From Calothrix sp. NIES-4105 (GTDB lineage Bacteria; Cyanobacteriota; Cyanobacteriia; Cyanobacteriales; Nostocaceae): DNA of 64,000 bases. Each line of letters begins with the position of its first letter. The first letter of the stretch is position 1. The stretch is from NCBI RefSeq assembly GCF_002368415.1, contig NZ_AP018290.1, positions 4,415,614 through 4,479,613 on the forward strand, written 5' to 3'. Positions 36,278 through 52,395 of the stretch are shown here, one piece after another. The position numbers and the translations under genes are program-made. The notes below the pieces were generated by a model. It saw only the letters and a program-made list of their open reading frames with translations. It searched no databases and had not been told where the DNA came from.

Positions 36278-37444
36278 TTACTTCCCAAATCCTTTTGCGC
36301 GACTTGTGGAAGGTGTTGTCAAACAGTTTTCAATTTGTTTGAGTAGTGTTTCTTTGTCGAGGTTTTGACCTATTAGGACAACTTGGTTTTTCTTGGCGCC
36401 TTTCCATTCGTCGTCATCCATTGTGAAACGTTTGCCGCATAAGTGGAAAATATGGCGTTTGGGACTTTCTTCAAACCACATTATTCCTTTCGCGCGGAAT
36501 ACGTTTGTGGGTAGTTGGTTATCTAGAAAATATTGGAATTTTCTAATTACGAAGGGTTTATCGCTTTGGAAAGAAATTGATGTAAACCCATCATTTTCTA
36601 AGTGGTGGGAGTGATCATGGTCATGGTGATCATGGTCGTGACTATGGTCATGTCCGCAGGTTGAGTGGTCGTGGTCGTGTTCGTGATGGTCGTGGTCGTG
36701 TTCGTGATGGTCGTGGTTGTGTTCGTGATGGTCGTGGTTGTGGTCGTGATGGTCGTGGTTGTGGTCGTGATGGTCGTGGTTGTCAGTTTCAAAATATTTG
36801 TCTGACTCGAACAAACCGACGCTGAGTATTAATCCTAATGGTACCTGAGAGTTTTTTGTACGGATGATACGGGCGCCTTCTTTGACTTCGTTGATTTTTC
36901 TTTCTAAATCTGTTAATTCAGATTCTGTTACCAAGTCGGTTTTGTTAAGTAATATTACGTCACCGTAGGCAATTTGACTGTGTGCTGCTTCGGAGTTGAA
37001 TAAATCCAAGCTATAATTGGCTGCATCAACAACGGTAATTATCGAGTCTAAACGAGTTAAATCGCGTAGTTCGGTGCCGAGAAAAGTTAACGCGACTGGT
37101 AAAGGGTCGGCAAGTCCGGTTGTCTCAACAACCAAATAGTCTATATTCTGCTCACGTTCGAGAACTTTGTAAACAGCATCGACTAAATCGCTGTTGATGG
37201 TGCAGCAGATACAACCGTTGTTTAATTCCACCATGTTTTCGTCGGTGGAGACTACTAATTCGTTATCAATACCAATTTCGCCAAATTCGTTGACTAAAAC
37301 GGCTGTTTTCAAACCTTGCTGGTTTGTCAAAATGTGATTGAGTAAAGTTGTTTTGCCACTACCGAGAAAGCCAGTAATAATTGTTACTGGTAATCCCTGT
37401 TTGGGTGCGTCCATTGTTTGAGATTCAGAGGTAAGCGTTTGCAT
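36278..37444 (-). CDS. CobW/COG0523 GTP-dependent metallochaperone with His-rich insert
   Basis: A G3E-family GTPase of about 388 residues. Walker A GFLGSGKTT lies near the start, the CxCC metal site is GCICCTI, ETTGLADP is the Walker B/switch part, and LLNKTDLV is the NKxD guanine motif. An insert about 220-285 is almost entirely His/Asp/Asn/Glu in seven-residue units (HDHHDHN), encoded by near-identical 21-base DNA repeats (about 36604-36785). The C-terminal CobW_C domain follows (GIMWFEESPKRHIFHLCGKR). Members insert Zn or Co into targets or maintain Zn supply; which metal is not shown. I chose ATG 37444 over an in-frame TTG at 37456. Confidence 0.88.
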   Translation of the reverse strand: MQTLTSESQTMDAPKQGLPVTIITGFLGSGKTTLLNHILTNQQGLKTAVLVNEFGEIGIDNELVVSTDENMVELNNGCICCTINSDLVDAVYKVLEREQNIDYLVVETTGLADPLPVALTFLGTELRDLTRLDSIITVVDAANYSLDLFNSEAAHSQIAYGDVILLNKTDLVTESELTDLERKINEVKEGARIIRTKNSQVPLGLILSVGLFESDKYFETDNHDHHDHNHDHHDHNHDHHEHNHDHHEHDHDHHEHDHDHSTCGHDHSHDHDHHDHDHSHHLENDGFTSISFQSDKPFVIRKFQYFLDNQLPTNVFRAKGIMWFEESPKRHIFHLCGKRFTMDDDEWKGAKKNQVVLIGQNLDKETLLKQIENCLTTPSTSRAKGFGK

Positions 37445-37586
37445 AATGCGATACAAAGAAATTCAATTTAGATAAATGTGTAGCGTAATGAGTACTGAAA
37501 ACATTAGCATAGGGATGTGTGGACATCCTTCGTCCTAATGACTAAACATATTATTGCTCAAACTTTGAAGAGACTCATATATCGCT

Positions 37587-42116: not shown

Positions 42117-42465
42117 TTTGATCCCCCCGAACCGCCCCGCGCTCTCAGGGGGGCTTTAATAAGTTGTAGCATAGGTGTCTCGCCTGTGCAGTGATAAATG
42201 TTATTTTATTTACCACAGAGACGCAGAGGAGAGAGATTTAAAATAGGCGCCAACTTTCTCTTAGCCCCCTTATTAAGGGGGTTGGGGGGATCAATTATTC
42301 GATATTAAATATTTACTCTTTGGGCAGGTAAATTCGTTTGCGTAACTCAGCATCAATTTCTTCATCTGTAGTACAAATACAATATGTTACAAAAAGTAAG
42401 GTTCCCATGATGTCCTGAATGCGCGATAATAACTATAAACTTGTAATAATGTTTCTTAAATCTTC
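42117..42465. repeat. Spacer of 349 bases with nested palindromic repeats
   Basis: GATCCCCCC (42120-42128) faces GGGGGGATC (42283-42291), and CTTTAATAAG (42154-42163) faces CTTATTAAGGG (42266-42275). Inside is GTAGCATAGGTGTCTCGCC (42166-42184), whose reverse complement lies at 57330-57360, and a CACAGAGACGCAGAGG stretch like the one around 57294-57312. Bases 42300-42465 lack repeats and should contain the brnT promoter. Confidence 0.8.
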
Positions 42466-42744
42466 ATGCTTTTTGAGTGGGACGAAGCGAAAAACCTTGA
42501 AAATATTCGTAAACATAAAATTGATTTCGCTAATGTTCCTCAGATGTTTAACGGTTCGATGTTAACTGAGTTAGATGAACGTTTCGATTATGGTGAGGAT
42601 AGATGGATTGGAATAGGCTTTTTAGGTAATGGTGTAGCAGTAGTGGTTTGGACAGAAAGACGAGAAAATCTTATCCGCATTATTTCAGCAAGAAAGGCAA
42701 ATAGATATGAACGACAAAGATTTGAAGAATACCTCTCGTACTAA
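42466..42744 (+). CDS. brnT: BrnT-type ribonuclease toxin
   Basis: Ninety-two residues. The start MLFEWDEAKNLENIRKHKID is the BrnT signature (F-E-W-D-x-x-K...N-x-x-K-H-x-I-x-F), followed by GEDRWIGIGFLGNGVAVVVWTERRE and RIISARKANRYERQRFEEY, with the catalytic basic residues in ISARKAxxxER. BrnT folds like RelE and inhibits translation. It overlaps the downstream brnA by 38 bases. Toxin-first order is the norm for brnTA. Confidence 0.93.
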   Translation: MLFEWDEAKNLENIRKHKIDFANVPQMFNGSMLTELDERFDYGEDRWIGIGFLGNGVAVVVWTERRENLIRIISARKANRYERQRFEEYLSY

Positions 42745-42985
42745 CTGGGAAGCATTAGAATCAATGTCTGATGATGATATTGACTATTCTGATATTCCAC
42801 CGTTGACCGATGAATTTTTTAATAAGGCTGTTTTAAGGATTCCTGTTGCTCAAGCAAAAAATCTAGTGCAGCTTGACCCTGATGTAATGGCTTGGTTTGA
42901 AGAACAAGGCGGAGAATATAAAGAAACTATAAACTCTATATTACGCCGTTATATTCAAAATGATGGCGACAAAAAAACTGCTTGA
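42707..42985 (+). CDS. brnA: BrnA-type antitoxin
   Basis: A 92-residue acidic protein with DIDYSDIPPLTDEFFNKAVL (the BrnA start) and a C-terminal ribbon-helix-helix/COG3514-like end (LDPDVMAWFEEQGGEYKETI then NSILRRYIQ) that dimerises and binds the operator. It overlaps brnT by 38 bases in another frame, so the two are strictly coupled. Intact. Confidence 0.92.
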   Translation: MNDKDLKNTSRTNWEALESMSDDDIDYSDIPPLTDEFFNKAVLRIPVAQAKNLVQLDPDVMAWFEEQGGEYKETINSILRRYIQNDGDKKTA

Positions 42986-43196
42986 ATCTTGGCGCCTTGT
43001 TTTTCTTTTCCTATATAGGAATTCTATATCATTTGTAAAAAATGCGTAAATGTAGAGATGCGTTCACGGAGTGTACCGCAGGTAAATTTTCCTACCCTAC
43101 CCTTCGGGAAAACCTTCGGTTTACGGAGAAGCTTCGCTTGCGCGTCTCTACAATGTATAAATTTCACGTTGGGTTGCGCGGGTAAAAAGGAAACGA
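42986..43196. repeat. Mosaic of dispersed repeat pieces after brnA
   Basis: GGAATTCTATATCATTTG with TAAAAAATGCGTAAATGTAG (43019-43060) resembles 24598-24640. It runs into GTAGAGATGCGTT...GCGCGTCTCTAC (43057-43151), a longer relative of the palindrome at 33240-33267 whose loop holds CTTCGGGAAAACCTTCGG. No gene is convincing. Confidence 0.6.
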
Positions 43197-46100
43197 TTAA
43201 TTTAAAGGGTTATACTCCGAAAGTAAATTGTCTAAAAGCTTACGTTCGCTGGGTGTTAAATCAGATATAGAGGCACCAAATTGCTGTAGCTTTTCGTAAA
43301 TTAAATCATGTTCAAATGTTTCTATAGTTTCTTGGATTTCTCCATATAGTTCCTGAAAAGTAAACTCAGTAGCTAATTCAGAGGCAATTTGTTCTCTGTC
43401 TTTACCTAGTAACTGATTATTAAATTTATAATTGCCTTGAGATTGAGATACTAATTTAAGGGCAATACCTAGAAGTAGGGTTTGATAAGCTTGCTTTAAT
43501 TCTCTACTTGAACCAATTTCTTCAGGTATTAAATCGGGTATATAATTGTCTAGTTCGTCTTGCTGTATTTGTTCGCTTTGCGCGCGCTCGTAGCAGTCTC
43601 GATAAAACTCTATTTGACTGAGAAAATAAGCTGGGAAACCTAGGGAACGGGTCAAAACGCACAATTTTTGCTCATCTTCAGCTATTAAAGCACTCAAAGT
43701 TCGGTATGAACGACTGCAAAGTCCTAAAATTTGTTCTTTGTCTTTAGCACCAACCCAAAGTGTAGTCTCGCGTTGGGAAGTTGGGTTTAAGTTAGCATCG
43801 ATGTCTTGAAGTCGCAGTAATAAGTTAGCGCTATCATGAAGCTGGTTTAAACGTAATGAAGCAGTATTTGGCGCCATTAAATCTGATGATAGCAAAACTT
43901 CTCCAATTGATAGCTTGCTTAATTGCTCGAACTGTTTCTGAGTAAACGATGTCAGTTGGTTTTGAAATGTTGCAGGCATTTTCCATGACTGAGAACGACT
44001 AACGCATTCTTGAATGAATGTTTTAGTTGGTGATAACTCAAGAAAATTTTGGTAATATTTCTCAATGTCTTTATCTGTTACAACTGCAAGTCTGGTTTCG
44101 GAAAATTTTGTTGTAGCTCCACACTGTTTAACCAAATTATTATGTATTTCCGAAAATAAATCAAGAGTTTGACGTAAAGAATCAGCTTTTTGTTTAGCTG
44201 TTTTTATTAAATAATTCAACGTTTCAACACGAAGATTTTGGACGTAGAAGTCATATTCTAATTTTAATTGGTCATTATAATTGCGACGTAATTCAACGGC
44301 GGTTGCTTTCAAACTGCTTTCTAGTCGTTTAATTTGTTTCTGAGTCTTCTGAATTCGGTCACGGATATTAGTGCTATACTGGAGCCAAACAATACCTAAG
44401 TATGTTAAAATTGCTACTGCTGTCCAAAGCAGGCAGTTAATTAAGTTTTCGCCAATTTTTTGTAGTAATCCCCACAGTATAGATTGGTTGAAAATTCCGA
44501 TAATAATTAGCAAGCCTAATAAAATAAGGACGAAAAATATAGGATAAATAACTAAATGTTGGTTGCGAAAACGGCTTTCTTCAGTCAACAGTTCGGTCAG
44601 TTTATCTGTAGTTGTTTCGAGTTGATTTTCAGTGATAGTGAGATGCTTTTGAGTGGCAATAATTGCTGCTTCAGCTTCTTCACGAGCTTGCTTGCGTGCC
44701 TGGGCACGAATTTGGTTGGCAGATTCAATTTCTGCATTTGCGGCTTTTTGATACTCATTGGTGGCTGTTCTTAGCTGTTCTAAGATTGTTTGTAGTTGCT
44801 GTAGTTCCTGGTGATTTCCTTCGGCTATATTATCTTGTAATTGTTGCTGTCGCAATTTCAAAGACAGAACTTCATTCAACAGCTTTTTAGTGGCTTCGTT
44901 ATCGATTACTACCTGTAATTTTGTATCAAAAAATGCTTCTGCTGCACGCAGTTCTGTAACTAAATTATGAGATTGGTCACGCGCTTCATCGGTTTGCAGT
45001 TCTAAATATAAATAAGTCAATCGATTTAATAACATAACCGCTTCATGCAAACCGCTCTCGTTAGCATCAGCATAGCGATTAATGGTATTGTCTAAGAAAT
45101 TTGTTAATGTTGCCTGCACTTGTTTGCAAGAATTTTCCAGCGCGCGCTTATATGAAAGTAGCTCTTTGTTCTCAAATTGCCGATATGCATGTTGCATTTC
45201 CATTCCATACTCGTTAGCCATACCAGTGCGGATGTCAAGACGTGGGCTAAAGTCTTGCCAAACAGGTTTGCCGTTATCTCGTTCTAATTCTAAAAAAGCA
45301 TTGCTAAATTCTTCGCTAAGTACAAATTCTTTTGCGTCTAATAACCATTTACGCTTATTCTCTGGTGTAAATTCTGGTTTCGGCAAAAACTGCTCAACCA
45401 TAATATCGGCGCCTAAACTAGCACTTAAGCGGTTAATAACTGTTTCTCCTGGAAAAAACAGTTCTCCATAGCCAAAAGCACTGTAAGCAGGCATTTTTCC
45501 TCGGACTTTTTGGGCGCCTATCAATAAACCGCTTGTTTCAGCTTCTACAGTCAGAAAACCCGCAAAAGCATCAGCATAGCTACATAAATTATCTTTGAGT
45601 GCCCCAATTCGTTCATCAATGAGCCAGCAGTTATCAAAAGGTGGTGCTTTTTGACTACCTGCAACTACGACTCCACTAGTCATTTTGTAATCTAACTCTT
45701 TGAGCAGTCCATATGTCGCACTATAATCAACAGTTGTAACGTTGGTAAATAAACCAGGCAATAATAATAAAGCTTCTAAGCTGTGAGGTACGTCTGTGAA
45801 ATATTTACTGTACAACCAGCGAATCAAACGTACTAGCTCGAAAACTACTGCCCTCGCTTTATGATTACTAGCTGACAGCATCAGGTATATTCTATGTGCG
45901 TTGCTAATTTCCATTCCTTGGCGTTTAGCAGCAATAGCTGACTGAGATTGAGTTGCTGATTTGAGTACTTCGATGAGTTCGGTTTGAAGTTTACCAGCAG
46001 CTTGCGTGAACTGAGTACGGATTTGGGAGATAGAATTATTAGGAGTTTGAGTTAGTTCAAAACTCATGTCGGCATATGTTTCTAATTCTGAACTAAAGTT

Positions 46101-46244
46101 AAAAGCTTGTCCATCCCAAGTTAGGGTGTAAGTTTGGATTAGACTGCTTTGGGCAGCGGTTGATTTTTGTAGTTGCCGCTTTATCGCTTCACAAAAAGCG
46201 GCACTGTAAGGGTCGAGTGCTAGTAAGATAGTTGGCTTTGGCAT
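43197..46244 (-). CDS. Membrane coiled-coil protein with a degenerate tubulin-like N-terminal domain
   Basis: A 1015-residue protein. Residues 1-285 align with the tubulin-like protein of the next gene: TILLALDPYSAAFCEAIKRQ versus TVVIGLGGTGYEVVLKLKKR; LMLSASNHKARAVVFEL versus IVGSLAGGTGSGTFLDV; LPGLFTN...ATYGLLKEL versus LPRVFAN...NAYGALKEI; KVRGKMPAYSAFGYGEL versus KVRGRKINYCSFGFATL. Both Gly-rich nucleotide loops are lost, so it is probably a non-GTP-binding tubulin homologue. Residues about 450-558 and 625-700 are coiled coil, flanking two TM segments (about 564-586 and 601-622). The last 300 residues are helical and unassigned. Start ATG 46244, 76 bases after the tubulin-like gene; the message is probably one operon with the VWA gene. 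Confidence 0.82.
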   Translation of the reverse strand: MPKPTILLALDPYSAAFCEAIKRQLQKSTAAQSSLIQTYTLTWDGQAFNFSSELETYADMSFELTQTPNNSISQIRTQFTQAAGKLQTELIEVLKSATQSQSAIAAKRQGMEISNAHRIYLMLSASNHKARAVVFELVRLIRWLYSKYFTDVPHSLEALLLLPGLFTNVTTVDYSATYGLLKELDYKMTSGVVVAGSQKAPPFDNCWLIDERIGALKDNLCSYADAFAGFLTVEAETSGLLIGAQKVRGKMPAYSAFGYGELFFPGETVINRLSASLGADIMVEQFLPKPEFTPENKRKWLLDAKEFVLSEEFSNAFLELERDNGKPVWQDFSPRLDIRTGMANEYGMEMQHAYRQFENKELLSYKRALENSCKQVQATLTNFLDNTINRYADANESGLHEAVMLLNRLTYLYLELQTDEARDQSHNLVTELRAAEAFFDTKLQVVIDNEATKKLLNEVLSLKLRQQQLQDNIAEGNHQELQQLQTILEQLRTATNEYQKAANAEIESANQIRAQARKQAREEAEAAIIATQKHLTITENQLETTTDKLTELLTEESRFRNQHLVIYPIFFVLILLGLLIIIGIFNQSILWGLLQKIGENLINCLLWTAVAILTYLGIVWLQYSTNIRDRIQKTQKQIKRLESSLKATAVELRRNYNDQLKLEYDFYVQNLRVETLNYLIKTAKQKADSLRQTLDLFSEIHNNLVKQCGATTKFSETRLAVVTDKDIEKYYQNFLELSPTKTFIQECVSRSQSWKMPATFQNQLTSFTQKQFEQLSKLSIGEVLLSSDLMAPNTASLRLNQLHDSANLLLRLQDIDANLNPTSQRETTLWVGAKDKEQILGLCSRSYRTLSALIAEDEQKLCVLTRSLGFPAYFLSQIEFYRDCYERAQSEQIQQDELDNYIPDLIPEEIGSSRELKQAYQTLLLGIALKLVSQSQGNYKFNNQLLGKDREQIASELATEFTFQELYGEIQETIETFEHDLIYEKLQQFGASISDLTPSERKLLDNLLSEYNPLN

Positions 46245-46320
46245 GGGAATAAATGAACCACAAAGGTCACAAAGGGCACAAAGGTAAGAGGGTTTAAGAG
46301 AGTTTTTGCGTAAGGAGCGG

Positions 46321-49059
46321 TTAGATAATTACATCCAAGTCTTCTAGGTATGCTTCTATTTCTTGGATTTCCATTTCGACTTGTTCTTTAACTTGGGAAT
46401 CAACTTTTCCTCCTTTTAAAACTTGATTGAGGTGGTTGATGTAGTTATTGAGGGTAGATTTTGCTTGTTCTTCGTCTTGGTGAGTAATACGCTCAATTTT
46501 GTCAGAAATTTCTTTGACTAAAGCTAAGTTATTTTTGAAAGCTTTAAATGCTGATTTGCGGTCACTTCCCAAAAGCAATGTTCCATCCTCTGATTTGCGC
46601 GCTTGGTCTGTGTAAACAAAATATTGCCTTCTTTGATTGACAATTAATTTGTACATGTCAGGCGCCAGTGCTATTGCAAACCAGCGTAATGCTCCCCCGT
46701 CATCTTCCGGTGGTATTAAATTGGGAAAATTTCCCCAGTTACGGTGCAGGTGTTTGAAGACTTTATTCGGGTCTAGATAAGCTACTTCCATATCCTTGAC
46801 TCCGTTAAAGGCAAATAAGGGAACACCTACTTCAACTCGAAACAAAGTGACTTTATTCGGTTCACCCGTCGGCACAAAAGATGGGTTGTCTCTTCCTTTG
46901 GGTAAACGATTAGAAAGCGGTGGACTGCTAAATATAGTATTGTTTGTCCCAACTCCGTAGTAATAAAATTCTGTGATTATATGCTGCTGTTGAGTGGGAA
47001 TTTCTGTTTCTTCATACTGCCATAGAGGAACTGCTAGTTTACCAAGTTGTTCTAAATCTTGTGCCGCATCTTCTGGGTTACTATCTGCTAGTACTTCCTC
47101 AACAGTCATGCTTGTTAGTGGTTGGTAAGCTTCATTCAAAAATGCCAAAATTTCTGCTTTGACTTCTTCTGCTTTTTTCTCCGACCAATTAGTTAAACTT
47201 TGAGACTGTTCTCGATACCAACGAACGAAATCTTCACCGCTGATTTTAGGACGTTTCGATTGCAAATTCACACGCGCGATTGTGTGAATAAACGGATTGT
47301 CGCTTGTTGTTTGACGATTTACTTCGTGGTAACTCTGTTCTATATCTCGGTAAACTTTATCTAGGTTGCTATGAATACGTTGGCACTTGTCCTTAATTTC
47401 CTCTACTTTAGCTCGTAAGGCGCCGTAAAGTTCTGCTGCTTTGTCACACCGCTTCCAGTGTAAGTAAATCTTCCACTTTTGGTCAACACGGTCTTTGTAT
47501 CTCTGACAAGCAGCTTGGATGTTATTCTTATTTGAGAAAAAACCTTCAGCAGCTTCTTTTATCTTGTCTTCTTGCTGCTCTAACTTCAAAGCATTGAAAC
47601 TGGTTTGTGCTTCTTGTGACTTACGCTGTACACTCTGCTGCAATTCATCGAGTTTGGGGTAAAGCTCGGTCAAAAATTTCAAAGTATAAACTAGACCGTT
47701 CGGACGGTTGAAAGCACGTTCCCACCAAGCTTCTATAGCACTAGTGGCAGTTTGCTCCAAGCGATAAAAATTTGTTACAAGTTCTTTCGCTGTGCGTTGC
47801 TCGATTTGGTCTGACTGCCGCTTATAAAGTTCTTTAATCGTGGGTAATGCTGTACGGTCATAACGCATTTCGCCAATTCTGAAATCTGGTTTTATCTGTC
47901 CTCCACGCTCGCTTTCTATCAACGCATTTAGTACATTACTAGCTTCTGCTAAGTTAGAGTCTTGTAGAAAACGCGCGATTTCACTTTCTAAATCAATGGG
48001 GAGTGTAGGCGCCATCAACTCACTCAGTAGCAAGCTTTGAGCATCCTCTAATTTCATCCGCTCATACTGTTGTACTGGCAGAGTCAACGTAGCAAAGCCA
48101 AAGCTACAGTAATTAATCTTGCGTCCTCGAACTTTCTCACCAGTTGCTAAATAAGCGCGTATATTATCGGCGACGTTCGCAGCATCTAAACCAATTTGAG
48201 AACCAATTTGGATATATAACCCATCAGCGACTAAATTCTGCAAATCATCGGGACGACTAACTACAGTTCCCTTTTTGTTAACACCGTCAATTAAGAACAC
48301 TGCATCAAATGGAGGGCGGTCTGCTTTTACCTTTGCAATACCATAATCAATTTCAATGGCGTTTAATGGTGACAAACCCCAAAAGTGTTCGATTTCTTTG
48401 AGGGCGCCATAAGCATTTGACTTGACCATATGAGTTTGTGGCAGATTCGCAAACACTCTAGGTAAAACGAATACTCCTGTAACGTTGGAAAAACTATTTA
48501 AATATTGTCGTGCTAAGAATGCCACATCTAAAAACGTGCCACTACCAGTTCCACCAGCTAAACTGCCAACAATAAATATTTCTACTCCATCGCGGTTAGA
48601 GACTTGAAAGTTATCTGAAAATGCTTGTCTGCTACTGCGAATGCCTCGTACAGCGTTAATTGCTTGACCGATAAGGCTACTAATATCATTGACTTTCGCA
48701 AATAATGCCAAGCGCCCCCGCGCGCGTATTTGTCCGGCGCCGTTAATAATGCCATATGCAGGAATTTCTCTAGGCCACCATTCATCAATGTGGTCGTTAC
48801 GTCCTCCTAATAAAGAAACAGGGTTCGCTACGGATATGGCATAAAGTTCATTTGGTTCTAAGACAACCTTATTGCCATCTGGCGATTTTTCCCGTTCTTG
48901 AATATTCTCGGTAGTATCAATAGAAAGAAAACGAATAATTTCTGGTACAGACCCATATACATCTATAAAGCGCTTTTTGAGCTTGAGTACAACTTCATAA
49001 CCTGTACCACCCAACCCGATAACAACAGTAGGACGAAAAACAACCGTAGGACGTGACAT
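46321..49059 (-). CDS. Tubulin/FtsZ-superfamily (Tubulin_2-like) GTPase
   Basis: A 912-residue protein. The N-terminal Rossmann-like start TVVIGLGGTGYEVV (about 11-24) gives the first nucleotide loop. GSLAGGTGSGTFLD (about 165-178) is the tubulin signature GGTGSG, and LIGQ..., IGLDAANVAD (about 290-299) could be the catalytic T7-like loop. Residues about 420-680 are long helices, probably coiled coil; the C-terminal part is unassigned. There is no TM segment, so it should be cytoplasmic. It lies between the VWA membrane protein (34-base gap) and the degenerate tubulin-like membrane protein (76 bases). Tubulin-like plus VWA operons have been linked to membrane remodelling by comparative genomics; the function here is untested. 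Confidence 0.88.
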   Translation of the reverse strand: MSRPTVVFRPTVVIGLGGTGYEVVLKLKKRFIDVYGSVPEIIRFLSIDTTENIQEREKSPDGNKVVLEPNELYAISVANPVSLLGGRNDHIDEWWPREIPAYGIINGAGQIRARGRLALFAKVNDISSLIGQAINAVRGIRSSRQAFSDNFQVSNRDGVEIFIVGSLAGGTGSGTFLDVAFLARQYLNSFSNVTGVFVLPRVFANLPQTHMVKSNAYGALKEIEHFWGLSPLNAIEIDYGIAKVKADRPPFDAVFLIDGVNKKGTVVSRPDDLQNLVADGLYIQIGSQIGLDAANVADNIRAYLATGEKVRGRKINYCSFGFATLTLPVQQYERMKLEDAQSLLLSELMAPTLPIDLESEIARFLQDSNLAEASNVLNALIESERGGQIKPDFRIGEMRYDRTALPTIKELYKRQSDQIEQRTAKELVTNFYRLEQTATSAIEAWWERAFNRPNGLVYTLKFLTELYPKLDELQQSVQRKSQEAQTSFNALKLEQQEDKIKEAAEGFFSNKNNIQAACQRYKDRVDQKWKIYLHWKRCDKAAELYGALRAKVEEIKDKCQRIHSNLDKVYRDIEQSYHEVNRQTTSDNPFIHTIARVNLQSKRPKISGEDFVRWYREQSQSLTNWSEKKAEEVKAEILAFLNEAYQPLTSMTVEEVLADSNPEDAAQDLEQLGKLAVPLWQYEETEIPTQQQHIITEFYYYGVGTNNTIFSSPPLSNRLPKGRDNPSFVPTGEPNKVTLFRVEVGVPLFAFNGVKDMEVAYLDPNKVFKHLHRNWGNFPNLIPPEDDGGALRWFAIALAPDMYKLIVNQRRQYFVYTDQARKSEDGTLLLGSDRKSAFKAFKNNLALVKEISDKIERITHQDEEQAKSTLNNYINHLNQVLKGGKVDSQVKEQVEMEIQEIEAYLEDLDVII

Positions 49060-49093
49060 TCAATTTCCTCTCACATTATTAATAGTTGAATAA

Positions 49094-50917
49094 TTAATAA
49101 ACATCTTCCCCACTGGCTAGTTCAAAGGGGCGCTGATGTTCAATCCAGTTAAATTGCAGCTTCACTTTACCGATTTCAATAACATCGTCATCGTAAAGTT
49201 GATATGTAGTTACTTCCTTAGTATTGACACAAATTACACCTTTCAAACACCGTAATACTATATTTTTTCTGCCAGCTTCCCAGACTACGACTAACTCAGC
49301 ATCAGAATTAGTTGCAGCAACTTCTGGTATTAAATCACTCAGTAGTACTTGAGTTTTGCGGAGGCGAGTCAAACTAATCTCTTCGTCTTCTGAAGATTTT
49401 GGCAATGGTTCCAATACGAAGATAGCTCCTTCCAAGTATTTGCGATTACGGATATCTTGGAGTAATTCAAAGGGAGTTTTGCGTTGAATTAAACAAGTTA
49501 CTGTTAAAGCAATTAGCAACACCAGCAGTACAAATAGGAACCACAGAACTATTTTTCGCCATAGTGGCATAAAAATATGTATCTGAGCTTTTGTACTAGT
49601 GGAACTTGCAATTGGGTTATCAGGGGTCAATACTAATGTGAAGTTACGGGCGCCAAGAAAGCTGCTATCATTAACTTCCAACTGCACAGGAATTTTTGTT
49701 TCTCCTGCTTGCAATAATACTGATGTTCGTGAAGAAGGCACAGAAACGTCTTTAGTGCCATCTATATGTAATTTTGCGGTTCCAGATATATTGCTTTTGA
49801 CTACTAATGTTTGAGTCTCAGTCATTTTACCTGTTTCCGTTGAGCCAAAATCTATAGAAGCAGGTTGGATTTGCAGTTCTGATTTAATAGTTACAGCTAG
49901 GTCTACTTTAGAAGGCGCCACAGAAGAGTTTGCAGGATTCAAAACTAAACGTAAGTTACTGGCGCCTCCTTGTATATTTGCTGGAATTTGCAAACGCAAG
50001 GGAATAGGTGTCGGTTGATTAGCAGCTAATTCAATTGAACTATTGGGTGATATCAAACGAATACCACTTTGATTAGGTTCGAGTTGCAAGCTGACCTTGA
50101 CGTTTACATTACTGATGGCAGTAATATTAAGCGGTTCGGTAGTTGTTCCAGCTAATACTGGTTGTAAATTAGCAGTGGGTAAATTGATATCTAGTTTAGG
50201 TTGAACTAGCACAGGTCGGATATTTTGAGCTAGTTGGTTTAGCTGCACTCCTCCAGGGTCGCGCAATACCCGTCCTTTACCACACAACGCTGGGTTATTA
50301 GCAAAGTCATTAAGCTGCTTTTCGTGTTCTTTTAACCCTAGAGATACAAAAAATATGTAGGGTTTACATTGTTGCTCACGTAAAAATTGGGCATTGCTAG
50401 GAATCGGAACAGGATTTGGAATACCCTGTACTTGCTCTTGTCCATCAGTTAAGAACACTATACTGACACTACGACCGAGAGCATGGGAGCGCGCGTTTAA
50501 CATCGCAGAATGTTGCAGCGCTGTTTGTACCGCTTTACCTGTATGTGTACGCATACCATTTGCTTGAAGCGTGCGGATTATTTGCTTAAGCTTGCCTCGG
50601 TCTTCATTGCTCGTAATTTGAGCATCCGTAGTTTGTAAGGTTACATCTCTATCAAAAGTATAGATAGTAACCGTATCGCCTAATTGAGCGGTGTTAACAA
50701 ATTCAATAACAGAACTTTTAACTTGGTCAAAAATGTTTTTTGTACCACTGACACCACGCATTGAAGCAGAAGTATCTACCACCACAATCCAGTCAATTCC
50801 ACCTTTGGGAGTCGTTTGAGCAACGGCTTGGCATAAGTAAGAAATTGACATTCCGAAAGCAATAATGCCCGGTATTGACCCCAGTTTAACCCAATGTTTT
50901 AAGTATTTTACACCCAT
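49094..50917 (-). CDS. VWA-domain membrane protein with FHA-like cytoplasmic tail
   Basis: A 607-residue protein. A hydrophobic start (GIIAFGMSISYLCQAVAQ, about 18-34) is a signal peptide or anchor. The VWA domain about 40-230 has the MIDAS motif DTSASM (Asp about 48) and later Thr/Asp positions (FLTDGQEQ). A beta-rich region about 235-450 contains three repeated beta-sandwich-like units. A TM helix about 457-477 (IVLWFLFVLLVLLIALTV) follows, then a C-terminal cytoplasmic domain with ...VVVWEAGRKNIVLRCLKGV and DDDVIEIGKVKLQF, which resembles an FHA phosphothreonine-binding fold. It is the first gene of the operon, after an XRE regulator 126 bases upstream. It would sense or bridge the outside to the tubulin proteins inside (inference). 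Confidence 0.85.
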   Translation of the reverse strand: MGVKYLKHWVKLGSIPGIIAFGMSISYLCQAVAQTTPKGGIDWIVVVDTSASMRGVSGTKNIFDQVKSSVIEFVNTAQLGDTVTIYTFDRDVTLQTTDAQITSNEDRGKLKQIIRTLQANGMRTHTGKAVQTALQHSAMLNARSHALGRSVSIVFLTDGQEQVQGIPNPVPIPSNAQFLREQQCKPYIFFVSLGLKEHEKQLNDFANNPALCGKGRVLRDPGGVQLNQLAQNIRPVLVQPKLDINLPTANLQPVLAGTTTEPLNITAISNVNVKVSLQLEPNQSGIRLISPNSSIELAANQPTPIPLRLQIPANIQGGASNLRLVLNPANSSVAPSKVDLAVTIKSELQIQPASIDFGSTETGKMTETQTLVVKSNISGTAKLHIDGTKDVSVPSSRTSVLLQAGETKIPVQLEVNDSSFLGARNFTLVLTPDNPIASSTSTKAQIHIFMPLWRKIVLWFLFVLLVLLIALTVTCLIQRKTPFELLQDIRNRKYLEGAIFVLEPLPKSSEDEEISLTRLRKTQVLLSDLIPEVAATNSDAELVVVWEAGRKNIVLRCLKGVICVNTKEVTTYQLYDDDVIEIGKVKLQFNWIEHQRPFELASGEDVY

Positions 50918-51481: not shown

Positions 51482-52395
51482 TTATTCTCTATCTGTAAAA
51501 CACCAATTTTGTTCTTGAATAATTTGTTGGATGTCAGCTTCGAGAGCTTGAAAAGCAGGCAAAGTCCTTAATGGAGAAAAATCATCAATAAGTTCTGATA
51601 CTCTATGAACTCGCTCATGTAAATCATCGCGCAAAGAAGAGCGATATTGCTTAAAGACCGATTGAGTTTCTTGTTCTAGTAAATCATTCGGCGCCAAGTG
51701 GTACATTAACGGTGGGTTATCGACGATACGTCATTGATGATTAACTATTTCAGTAAATTTAGGCAATGCGTAGGCTGAAGTGCGCGTAAATGCTTTTTGT
51801 ACATATTTCTCAACTCGTTGTTTATGCTTCGGATGTTGAGCAAATTCCCGTAGAATGTCAGCATCAATGCGCGAATACCACACTTCTAAGGCGCCCATAG
51901 TAGCATAATAATTCGTATGTTCTCTGTACGAACGCACTGCCGCCCGTGCTGCTTCAGAACAGTGGGTTGCAGAAATATTAATATGACGACCTGCTACTAC
52001 ACAACTTGTTGCCAAACGTTTAATATCCCACTCCCAGGCGCCGGGTAAAGTTTCATCAAAGTCGTTTAAATCAAAAACGCTCATTGCGTTCGGGTGTTGC
52101 GTATCCACCAAAGTTAAGTAAGTGACAATCGCCACATGTTTGTATATTAATACCAGTGGTAGGAGTTGTCGCACGCATCTGTTGCCATGACTACTGCGGC
52201 GCCTCGAAGGAAAGTGAAAGGAGACTTAAGCATCCGTGCATACCGAATAGGTATCAAATTTTCTAATCTTCCTTCATCAGACTTTTCTAATAAAGTAATT
52301 GGGTCTGGACGATTTTGTGCTGCCATCCAACTTGCATGAGATGAGCGAGGAACCCAGGTACGTAACGCTTACGAACACCGCGCGTTTATCTATGG
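51482..52395 (-). pseudogene. DUF2252 protein pseudogene
   Basis: Several frames carry consecutive DUF2252 pieces. About 52270-52390 reads VPRSSHASW...NRPDPITLLE and PIRYARMLKSPFTFLRGAA. About 52080-52190 reads TTPTTGINIQTCGDCHLLNF. About 51731-52100 reads VFDLNDFDETLPGAWEWD, IKRLATSCVVAGRH, AARAAVRSY and ALPKFTEIV. After an in-frame TGA (HQ-stop-RIVDNPP) comes NDLLEQETQSVFKQYRSSL. At least one TAA near the start, two frame changes and the TGA break it, and the rest of the family's C-terminal half is missing. The last ~45 codons (to 51482) do not look like DUF2252. Confidence 0.88.

Follow-up and report, generated by a model that had tools for sequence, protein, structure and literature searches.

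A cyanobacterial operon of a vWA protein, a tubulin-like GTPase and a loop-less membrane paralogue suggests a transmembrane tubulin switch

Introduction

Why would an operon for a tubulin-like GTPase also encode a second, membrane-anchored protein of similar build that lacks the nucleotide loops? This question is raised by three adjacent genes of Calothrix sp. NIES-4105 (a genome of 8 contigs and 12.0 Mb) within a stretch of 64,000 nucleotides, the window, which covers positions 4,415,614 to 4,479,613 of contig NZ_AP018290.1. The three genes, and all features of them described below, are on the minus strand. Gene A (49094..50917) encodes a protein of 607 aa with an N-terminal hydrophobic stretch, a vWA domain, a following region, one transmembrane segment and a tail that is presumably inward. 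Gene B (46321..49059) encodes a tubulin-like GTPase of 912 aa with coiled-coil-type helices and a C-terminal region, and gene C (43197..46244) encodes a protein of 1015 aa that is very probably a membrane-anchored paralogue of B without nucleotide loops. An earlier inspection of the letters, hereafter the sequence-only reading, had placed the genes 34 and 76 bases apart, and the open reading frame (ORF) coordinates confirmed these distances for A-B and B-C, respectively. The analysis described here suggests that this three-gene unit of some filamentous cyanobacteria is a transmembrane switch composed of one working and one non-working tubulin.

Results

Relationship of proteins B and C to Tubulin_2

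Protein B is a member of the FtsZl1/Tubulin_2 family. Residues 12-334 (48058..49026) matched PF13809 with an E value of 5.1e-63 and 213.9 bits against a curated cut-off of 27 (216.5 bits in the genome search), and B was the only Tubulin_2 match in the genome at E ≤ 0.001. The GGTGSG loop and the N-terminal GxGGTG that the sequence-only reading had pointed out in B were confirmed as the T4 loop at residues 169-174 (48538..48555) and the T1 loop GLGGTG at residues 15-20 (49000..49017), and both motifs were found in 23/23 B proteins. A T7-like segment was located by alignment at residues 290-299 (48163..48192), its assignment as T7 being presumptive; D298 and N299 were invariant in 9/9 aligned B proteins, including three from Thermales.

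Similarity between B and the first 285 residues of C, the pseudo-tubulin N-domain (45390..46244), had been noticed by eye and was borne out by BLASTP (E = 7e-7 over C 70-265) and by hhalign with the three Thermales B proteins added (E = 3.1e-10). The hhalign score was 77.7, whereas 60 column shuffles averaged 16.0 and never exceeded 25.1. Beyond what had been claimed, the C-terminal parts of C and B also matched (E = 2.1e-12, score 93.2 vs a shuffle maximum of 24.5), and the regions after the coiled coil were similar in a separate comparison (E = 5.7e-10), the C-terminal region of C at residues 709-1015 (43200..44120) resembling that of B. The N-domain of C aligned in register with 30 canonical cyanobacterial Tubulin_2 proteins (E = 1.1e-7) and with the cyanobacterial B proteins alone at E = 3.4e-7, so that a closer relationship of C to B than to canonical Tubulin_2 was only partly borne out. 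The part of C that follows the N-domain gave 1.2e-10 against B, 5e-6 against the Thermales B proteins and 8e-4 against five canonical Tubulin_2 proteins. An origin of C from the B branch is thus favored by the similarity of the C-terminal parts together with the gene order.

A Tubulin_2 profile search of 43197-46244 had been proposed earlier. Window C alone had no Tubulin_2 match at E ≤ 1, whereas 11 of the 19 N-domains of the C family matched at that threshold (best 5.5e-5); the next-best Pfam family reached 3 members (best 0.038). Among the best 50 Foldseek matches listed for the structural model of C there was no named tubulin or FtsZ chain, and tubulins appeared in a second structural comparison (VIA). 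The tubulin fold of the N-domain, on which the sequence-only reading had staked its proposal, was not refuted, and its structural support is modest. Compared by sequence with solved structures, B and C matched weakly and in helical regions only (best E 0.027 and 0.1, respectively). On the basis of sequence comparison, the similarity of C to Tubulin_2 is clear, and C is very probably a paralogue within this family that has no nucleotide loops.

Features lost, kept and gained by protein C

The loss of both nucleotide loops, previously described for the window protein, held throughout the family. At the T1 place C has ALDPYS (residues 9-14; 46203..46220), and A-x-D-P was conserved in 24/24 C proteins. 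At the T4 place the alignment puts SASNHKAR (residues 124-131; 45852..45875), which differs in two Pseudanabaena-type C proteins. The T1 and T4 motifs were each found in 0/24 C proteins, in contrast to their presence in every B protein. C also lacks the GAGQIRARGR stretch in the alignment with B, and approximately 11 residues are absent at the place of the T7-like segment. Lacking the loops by which the family is defined, C is not classed as a Tubulin_2 GTPase. A subunit of tubulin type is not expected to bind nucleotide when these two loops are missing. Since T1, T4 and the T7-like segment are lost, C is probably unable to bind nucleotide or to extend a GTP-driven filament.

Hydropathy analysis revealed two hydrophobic segments of C at residues 564-582 and 601-619 (44388..44555), which likely form a membrane hairpin within the long helical region. 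This measure is crude, and for the two Pseudanabaena-type C proteins it gave one hydrophobic stretch near 635-663 and did not resolve two. Window C ends in YNPLN (43200..43214), and PLN was terminal in 23/24 C proteins; the exception, from locus L096, ends prematurely close to the end of its contig. The ratio of nonsynonymous to synonymous substitution rates (dN/dS) was 0.17-0.27 for C (six pairs) and 0.11-0.25 for its N-domain, and 0.05-0.19 for B (five pairs) and 0.01-0.17 for the B N-domain. These values indicate that C is under constraint, its N-domain less so than the GTPase domain of B.

Distribution and inheritance of the unit

Among named relatives, window C was closest to the protein of Calothrix sp. 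HK-06 (90%) and to a partial one of Calothrix sp. FI2-JRJ7 (87%). Scanning genome contigs yielded 26 C loci, in 24 of which A, B and C followed in that order on one strand. Of the other two, L081 is cut by the end of its contig and starts within C, and L097 is a relic only. A member of the unit was broken in three of the ordered loci (L076, L087 and L094), and three more (L079, L093 and L096), which lie at or close to the ends of contigs, were incomplete. Beyond the trio, no ORF cluster was present in more than 8/26 C loci. The unit was also found in Pseudanabaena cinerea and in an Oscillatoriales metagenome-assembled genome, with identities to the window of 30% for C, 44% for B and 36% for A.

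Among 217 Nostocaceae genomes, 41 matched C, 27 over the whole model and 14 in part; of the latter, one (G005) lies at a contig end, and in 8 one or more of the matched pieces are interrupted by in-frame stops. B stood beside C on the same contig and strand in 27/27 whole-C genomes, although it was interrupted or shortened in three of them (G003, G497 and G545). A near-complete B was present in 28 genomes, the additional one being G002, in which C lacks its middle. The locus of this genome, from Calothrix sp. PCC 7716 (L094 5969-11634), has a whole B, while the vWA part of A and the middle of C are gone. Across the class, 388 genomes were sampled; Tubulin_2 exceeded the cut-off in 106 of them and C was found in 7.

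Pairwise distances were strongly correlated between C and B (0.95 over 22 loci; 0.86 within Nostocales), between C and A (15 loci; 0.98, and 0.92 within Nostocales) and between B and A (14 loci; 0.96, and 0.81 within Nostocales). The survey that the sequence-only reading had called for, with absence of co-occurrence counting against it, thus found the three genes together. It is apparent that the A-B-C unit is inherited together, is accessory and is often lost.

Canonical cyanobacterial Tubulin_2 loci were considered as carriers of a C-like gene and rejected: no ORF in the seven such loci that were read (L055-L061) matched window C at E ≤ 1e-4. Other arrangements were seen in these loci. L056 7685-10585 (minus strand) encodes a 967-aa Tubulin_2 protein (55 bits) whose own T1/T4 loops look degenerate and which has no adjoining C match. 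L057 241-10251 holds a vWA gene, a gene for a 1202-aa Tubulin_2 protein and a second vWA gene in a row. L058 8614-15533 has tandem Tubulin_2 genes, both with T1 and T4 loops.

Predicted architecture of proteins A and B

The vWA domain of A at residues 44-221 (50255..50788) was recognized by Pfam VWA (1.1e-14) and VWA_2 (2.9e-15). The alignment of A proteins places the metal ion-dependent adhesion site (MIDAS) sequence DTSAS at residues 48-52 (50762..50776), and D48, S50, S52, T124 and D158 were invariant in 15/15 aligned A proteins; T124 and D158 are taken here to be MIDAS positions. The motif form DxSxS is given in PMC2875224. Hydropathy showed a single strong segment, the transmembrane segment at residues 456-474 (49496..49552). 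We infer that the vWA domain faces outward and the tail (49094..49480) inward. The tail had no Pfam FHA match at E ≤ 1; it ends in LYDxDxIxIG, the other motifs usual in FHA domains are not visible in it, and its FHA identity is at most tentative.

In an AlphaFold2 (AF2) model of B, the FtsZ-like domain is followed by a coiled coil and a mostly helical C-terminal region. The long helical region (residues 404-582; 47314..47850) comprises helices 404-450, 455-490 and 511-582, and later elements are partly strands. The model gave a hint of tubulin-like C-terminal elements at residues 690-772, after the coiled coil, where model confidence is low. The tubulin fold of B may thus be split in two, with the coiled coil inserted between the parts. 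In contrast, PMC2875224 reports, in its text on this family, no tubulin-like similarity after the coiled coil.

Related clusters on Thermales plasmids

B matched 13 plasmid records, three of which, from Thermus oshimai, Meiothermus taiwanensis and Allomeiothermus silvanus, covered 96-99% of B at 26-27% identity; they were the only near-full-length B matches outside cyanobacteria. C had no match in plasmid and phage collections, and 57 pattern matches to B in viral contigs were tried without any being confirmed.

The gene order in these three records was vWA, Tubulin_2, a protein termed X, and brxL, with an insertion sequence (IS) element preceding brxL in Allomeiothermus. X has 677-689 aa and starts 2-3 bases after B, in the same place as C. 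In a fourth record, from T. thermophilus, what is left of B is found with X and brxL, and a CRISPR-Cas locus lies beside them. Among the four X-bearing records, brxL was the next gene in three and lay behind the IS element in one; three of the four BrxL proteins were scanned and matched with E = 6.8e-102 or better. The clusters span L098 6413-14372, L099 6315-14392, L100 6375-15467 (the one with the IS element) and L104 8209-12685 (B truncated, vWA not seen). Defense-type genes occur nearby: Hma/DUF499 and DUF1156 genes in Meiothermus, DISARM- or BREX-type helicases in Allomeiothermus and T. thermophilus, and a DrmMI-type methylase near the T. thermophilus cluster.

Along most of their length, the Thermales A and B proteins resemble their cyanobacterial counterparts (E = 2e-13 and 9e-64 by hhalign, respectively). 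X differs in having no significant similarity to C and in being followed by brxL, and no transmembrane segment was found in the three X proteins tested. As a homologue of C, X was rejected: 60 column shuffles reached the observed score in 10/60 cases for the N-parts and 4/60 for the C-parts. The same comparison with B was reached in 13/60 and 21/60 cases. The similar start, the same place and an NPL near the end of X are leads only, and homology of X and C was not accepted. No report of a tubulin-like protein linked with brxL was found in searches of the open-licence PubMed Central (PMC) literature, and the main text of a 2026 Nucleic Acids Research survey of BREX diversity contains 0 occurrences of tubulin or FtsZ.

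Discussion

Comparison with described systems

That tubulin-like and vWA operons had been proposed to act in membrane remodeling, as the sequence-only reading stated, is in print: Makarova and Koonin (2010; PMC2875224) described such FtsZl1 operons and made this proposal, which a reviewer of the article questioned. The article covers Nostoc and other cyanobacteria, and C may be listed in its supplements, where unnamed associated families A1-A2 and B1-B9 appear, as a nameless uncharacterized family. B shares with the FtsZl1 proteins the T1/T4 motifs, coiled-coil-type helices, the C-terminal region and the vWA neighbor, and these operons also contain membrane proteins. They differ in that the passages of PMC2875224 on them make no mention of a loop-less paralogue.

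Tubulin and vWA loci have also been classed as conflict systems (GAP1-N2 GTPase-centric) by Kaur et al. (2020; PMC7159879), who report Firmicutes loci with two coiled-coil tubulin-domain genes and two vWA genes, one of the vWA proteins being extracellular. B and, by its predicted topology, A would fit such loci, although the trio has one vWA gene instead of two and its second tubulin-like protein, C, is degenerate, with modest support for its fold; section 29 of that article calls neither tubulin inactive. The trio may also differ from GAP1-N2 systems in that no fixed GTPase partner was seen with it, no fourth gene being shared by more than 8/26 loci. The sequence-only reading knew of no description of the degenerate partner. 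This stands for a nucleotide-loop-less membrane paralogue, which was not found in searches of the open-licence PMC literature (supplements aside) or in passages of PMC9871819, PMC10067837, PMC5898192, PMC7002697 and PMC7766704, but it needs to be qualified by the published two-tubulin and vWA loci of PMC7159879.

A further parallel comes from plastids. ARC3 of chloroplast division has a degenerate FtsZ-like domain and modulates active FtsZ. C would resemble it as a partner with such a domain; ARC3 differs in its unrelated genetic setting, and it is not known to have a vWA partner or a membrane hairpin in a coiled coil.

Proposed mechanism

To our knowledge, no function has been proven for a Tubulin_2 protein, and none was found in searches of the open-licence PMC literature. 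From its family, B is expected to bind GTP and may assemble. The sequence-only reading had proposed an active/inactive tubulin pair with a membrane anchor; its presumed inactive member is now seen as a loop-less Tubulin_2 paralogue with hydrophobic segments in the long helical region, and the pairing itself is put forward here as a proposal. The outward vWA domain of A would probably bind a ligand through its metal site and change the state of the inward tail. B would be the cytoplasmic tubulin-superfamily GTPase, probably self-assembling on GTP. C would be an ancient paralogue of B, now without T1, T4 and the T7-like segment and with a putative membrane hairpin in the long helical region. It could act as an unchanging platform in the membrane to which B attaches by way of the helical and C-terminal parts common to both. 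Under the control of A, C may nucleate, cap or recruit B, and A would thereby report an outside event to the B-C assembly. Whether the operon encodes such a transmembrane GTPase switch, with a heteromeric membrane mechanism, we regard as evenly balanced.

The conserved loop-less membrane partner raises the question of whether a pseudo-tubulin sets where and when the GTPase assembles. If it does, bacteria would have a counterpart of the active/inactive pairs of tubulin type.

Alternative explanations

Two readings would deprive C of its place in such a switch, and both are very improbable. C could be no tubulin paralogue at all, its N-domain being another Rossmann-like fold and its likeness to B convergent or local. 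The profile matches in register to B and to 30 canonical Tubulin_2 proteins, the Tubulin_2 matches in 11/19 family members and the similarity of the C-terminal regions of C and B all argue against this. Equally improbable is that C is a decaying duplicate without function, a reading consistent with the 14 of 41 C-matching genomes that have only a partial C (8 of them with in-frame stops) and with G002 (L094), which retains B while the middle of C is gone. Decay is at odds with the dN/dS of 0.17-0.27, N-domain included, with the retention of C alongside B both in Nostocaceae and, at 30% identity, in two Pseudanabaena-type loci, and with the conservation of A-x-D-P (24/24) and of the PLN end (23/24).

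The role of the unit is best described as an accessory envelope response. Conflict and remodeling are two readings of this role and overlap with the switch mechanism; a function in conflict or defense is quite conceivable, though short of an even chance, and is more likely than remodeling without defense, which we consider doubtful. As a conflict or anti-phage module, A would read envelope damage or a phage signal and trigger B assembly on C, leading to a membrane response. This is consistent with the vWA-Tubulin_2-X clusters with brxL that hold the near-full B matches outside cyanobacteria (3/13 plasmid records), with the classification of tubulin and vWA loci as conflict systems in PMC7159879, and with the patchiness and decay of the unit. 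It is weakened by the shuffle comparison, in which kinship of X to C was not established, and by the PADLOC searches: no model fits the three proteins of the window, where B came closest (0.034), nor the Thermus A, B and X proteins, where A did (0.005). Nor was there a defense pattern in the cyanobacterial neighborhoods. Of 184 neighbor ORFs at related loci, 79 were scanned (E ≤ 1e-10), and among the 25 of 67 matched families that were listed, no family had more than two members and none was BrxL; around the trio itself, the 9/9 window neighbors gave no PADLOC match at E ≤ 0.001, brxL included. Beside such genes, brxL was seen only in Thermales. In the remodeling reading, a GTPase cytoskeleton would act on the membrane with C as its adaptor. 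It draws on B as an FtsZl1/Tubulin_2 protein with a vWA partner, as in the operons treated in PMC2875224, on the hydrophobic segments of C and A, and on the PADLOC results for the neighbors. The patchy presence (whole C in 27 of 217 Nostocaceae) and the frequent decay (14 partial C) fit an accessory unit rather than such a cytoskeleton, and the reviewer's doubt published with PMC2875224 also weighs on it. The most far-reaching proposal, that in a prokaryotic tubulin heteropair a nucleotide-free, membrane-spanning pseudo-tubulin anchors or caps the GTPase, the pair forming a vWA-worked, immune-type envelope switch of multicellular cyanobacteria with a vWA-tubulin core common to the brxL-linked Thermales cluster, is tentative and, in our estimate, rather unlikely as a whole. 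The brxL-linked clusters nevertheless offer a second system in which to ask about an anti-phage role.

Surroundings of the locus

On one side of the trio, the window contains genes for a CobW-type GTPase, a cysteinyl-tRNA synthetase and two TldD/PmbA-type proteins. The CobW-type gene (36278-37456) and C are separated by approximately 5.7 kb, in which three genes lie on the plus strand. The other side holds a DUF2252 fragment, a globin, a Crp-type regulator and an oxidoreductase. The DUF2252 fragment is a 147-aa ORF (51731-52174, minus strand) that matches only positions 58-175 of the 392 of the family, and is probably a gene remnant. A scan for promoters and terminators gave no excess over shuffles. 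Short CTTTGTG-type repeats are found in the B-C spacer (window 46245-46320). In the window, the region next to C (42117-43196) has no ORF of 120 aa; in the Calothrix-type loci L081, L087 and L091, a gene of approximately 296 aa adjoins C, and in L091 (13185-14072) it encodes a PD-(D/E)XK family transposase.

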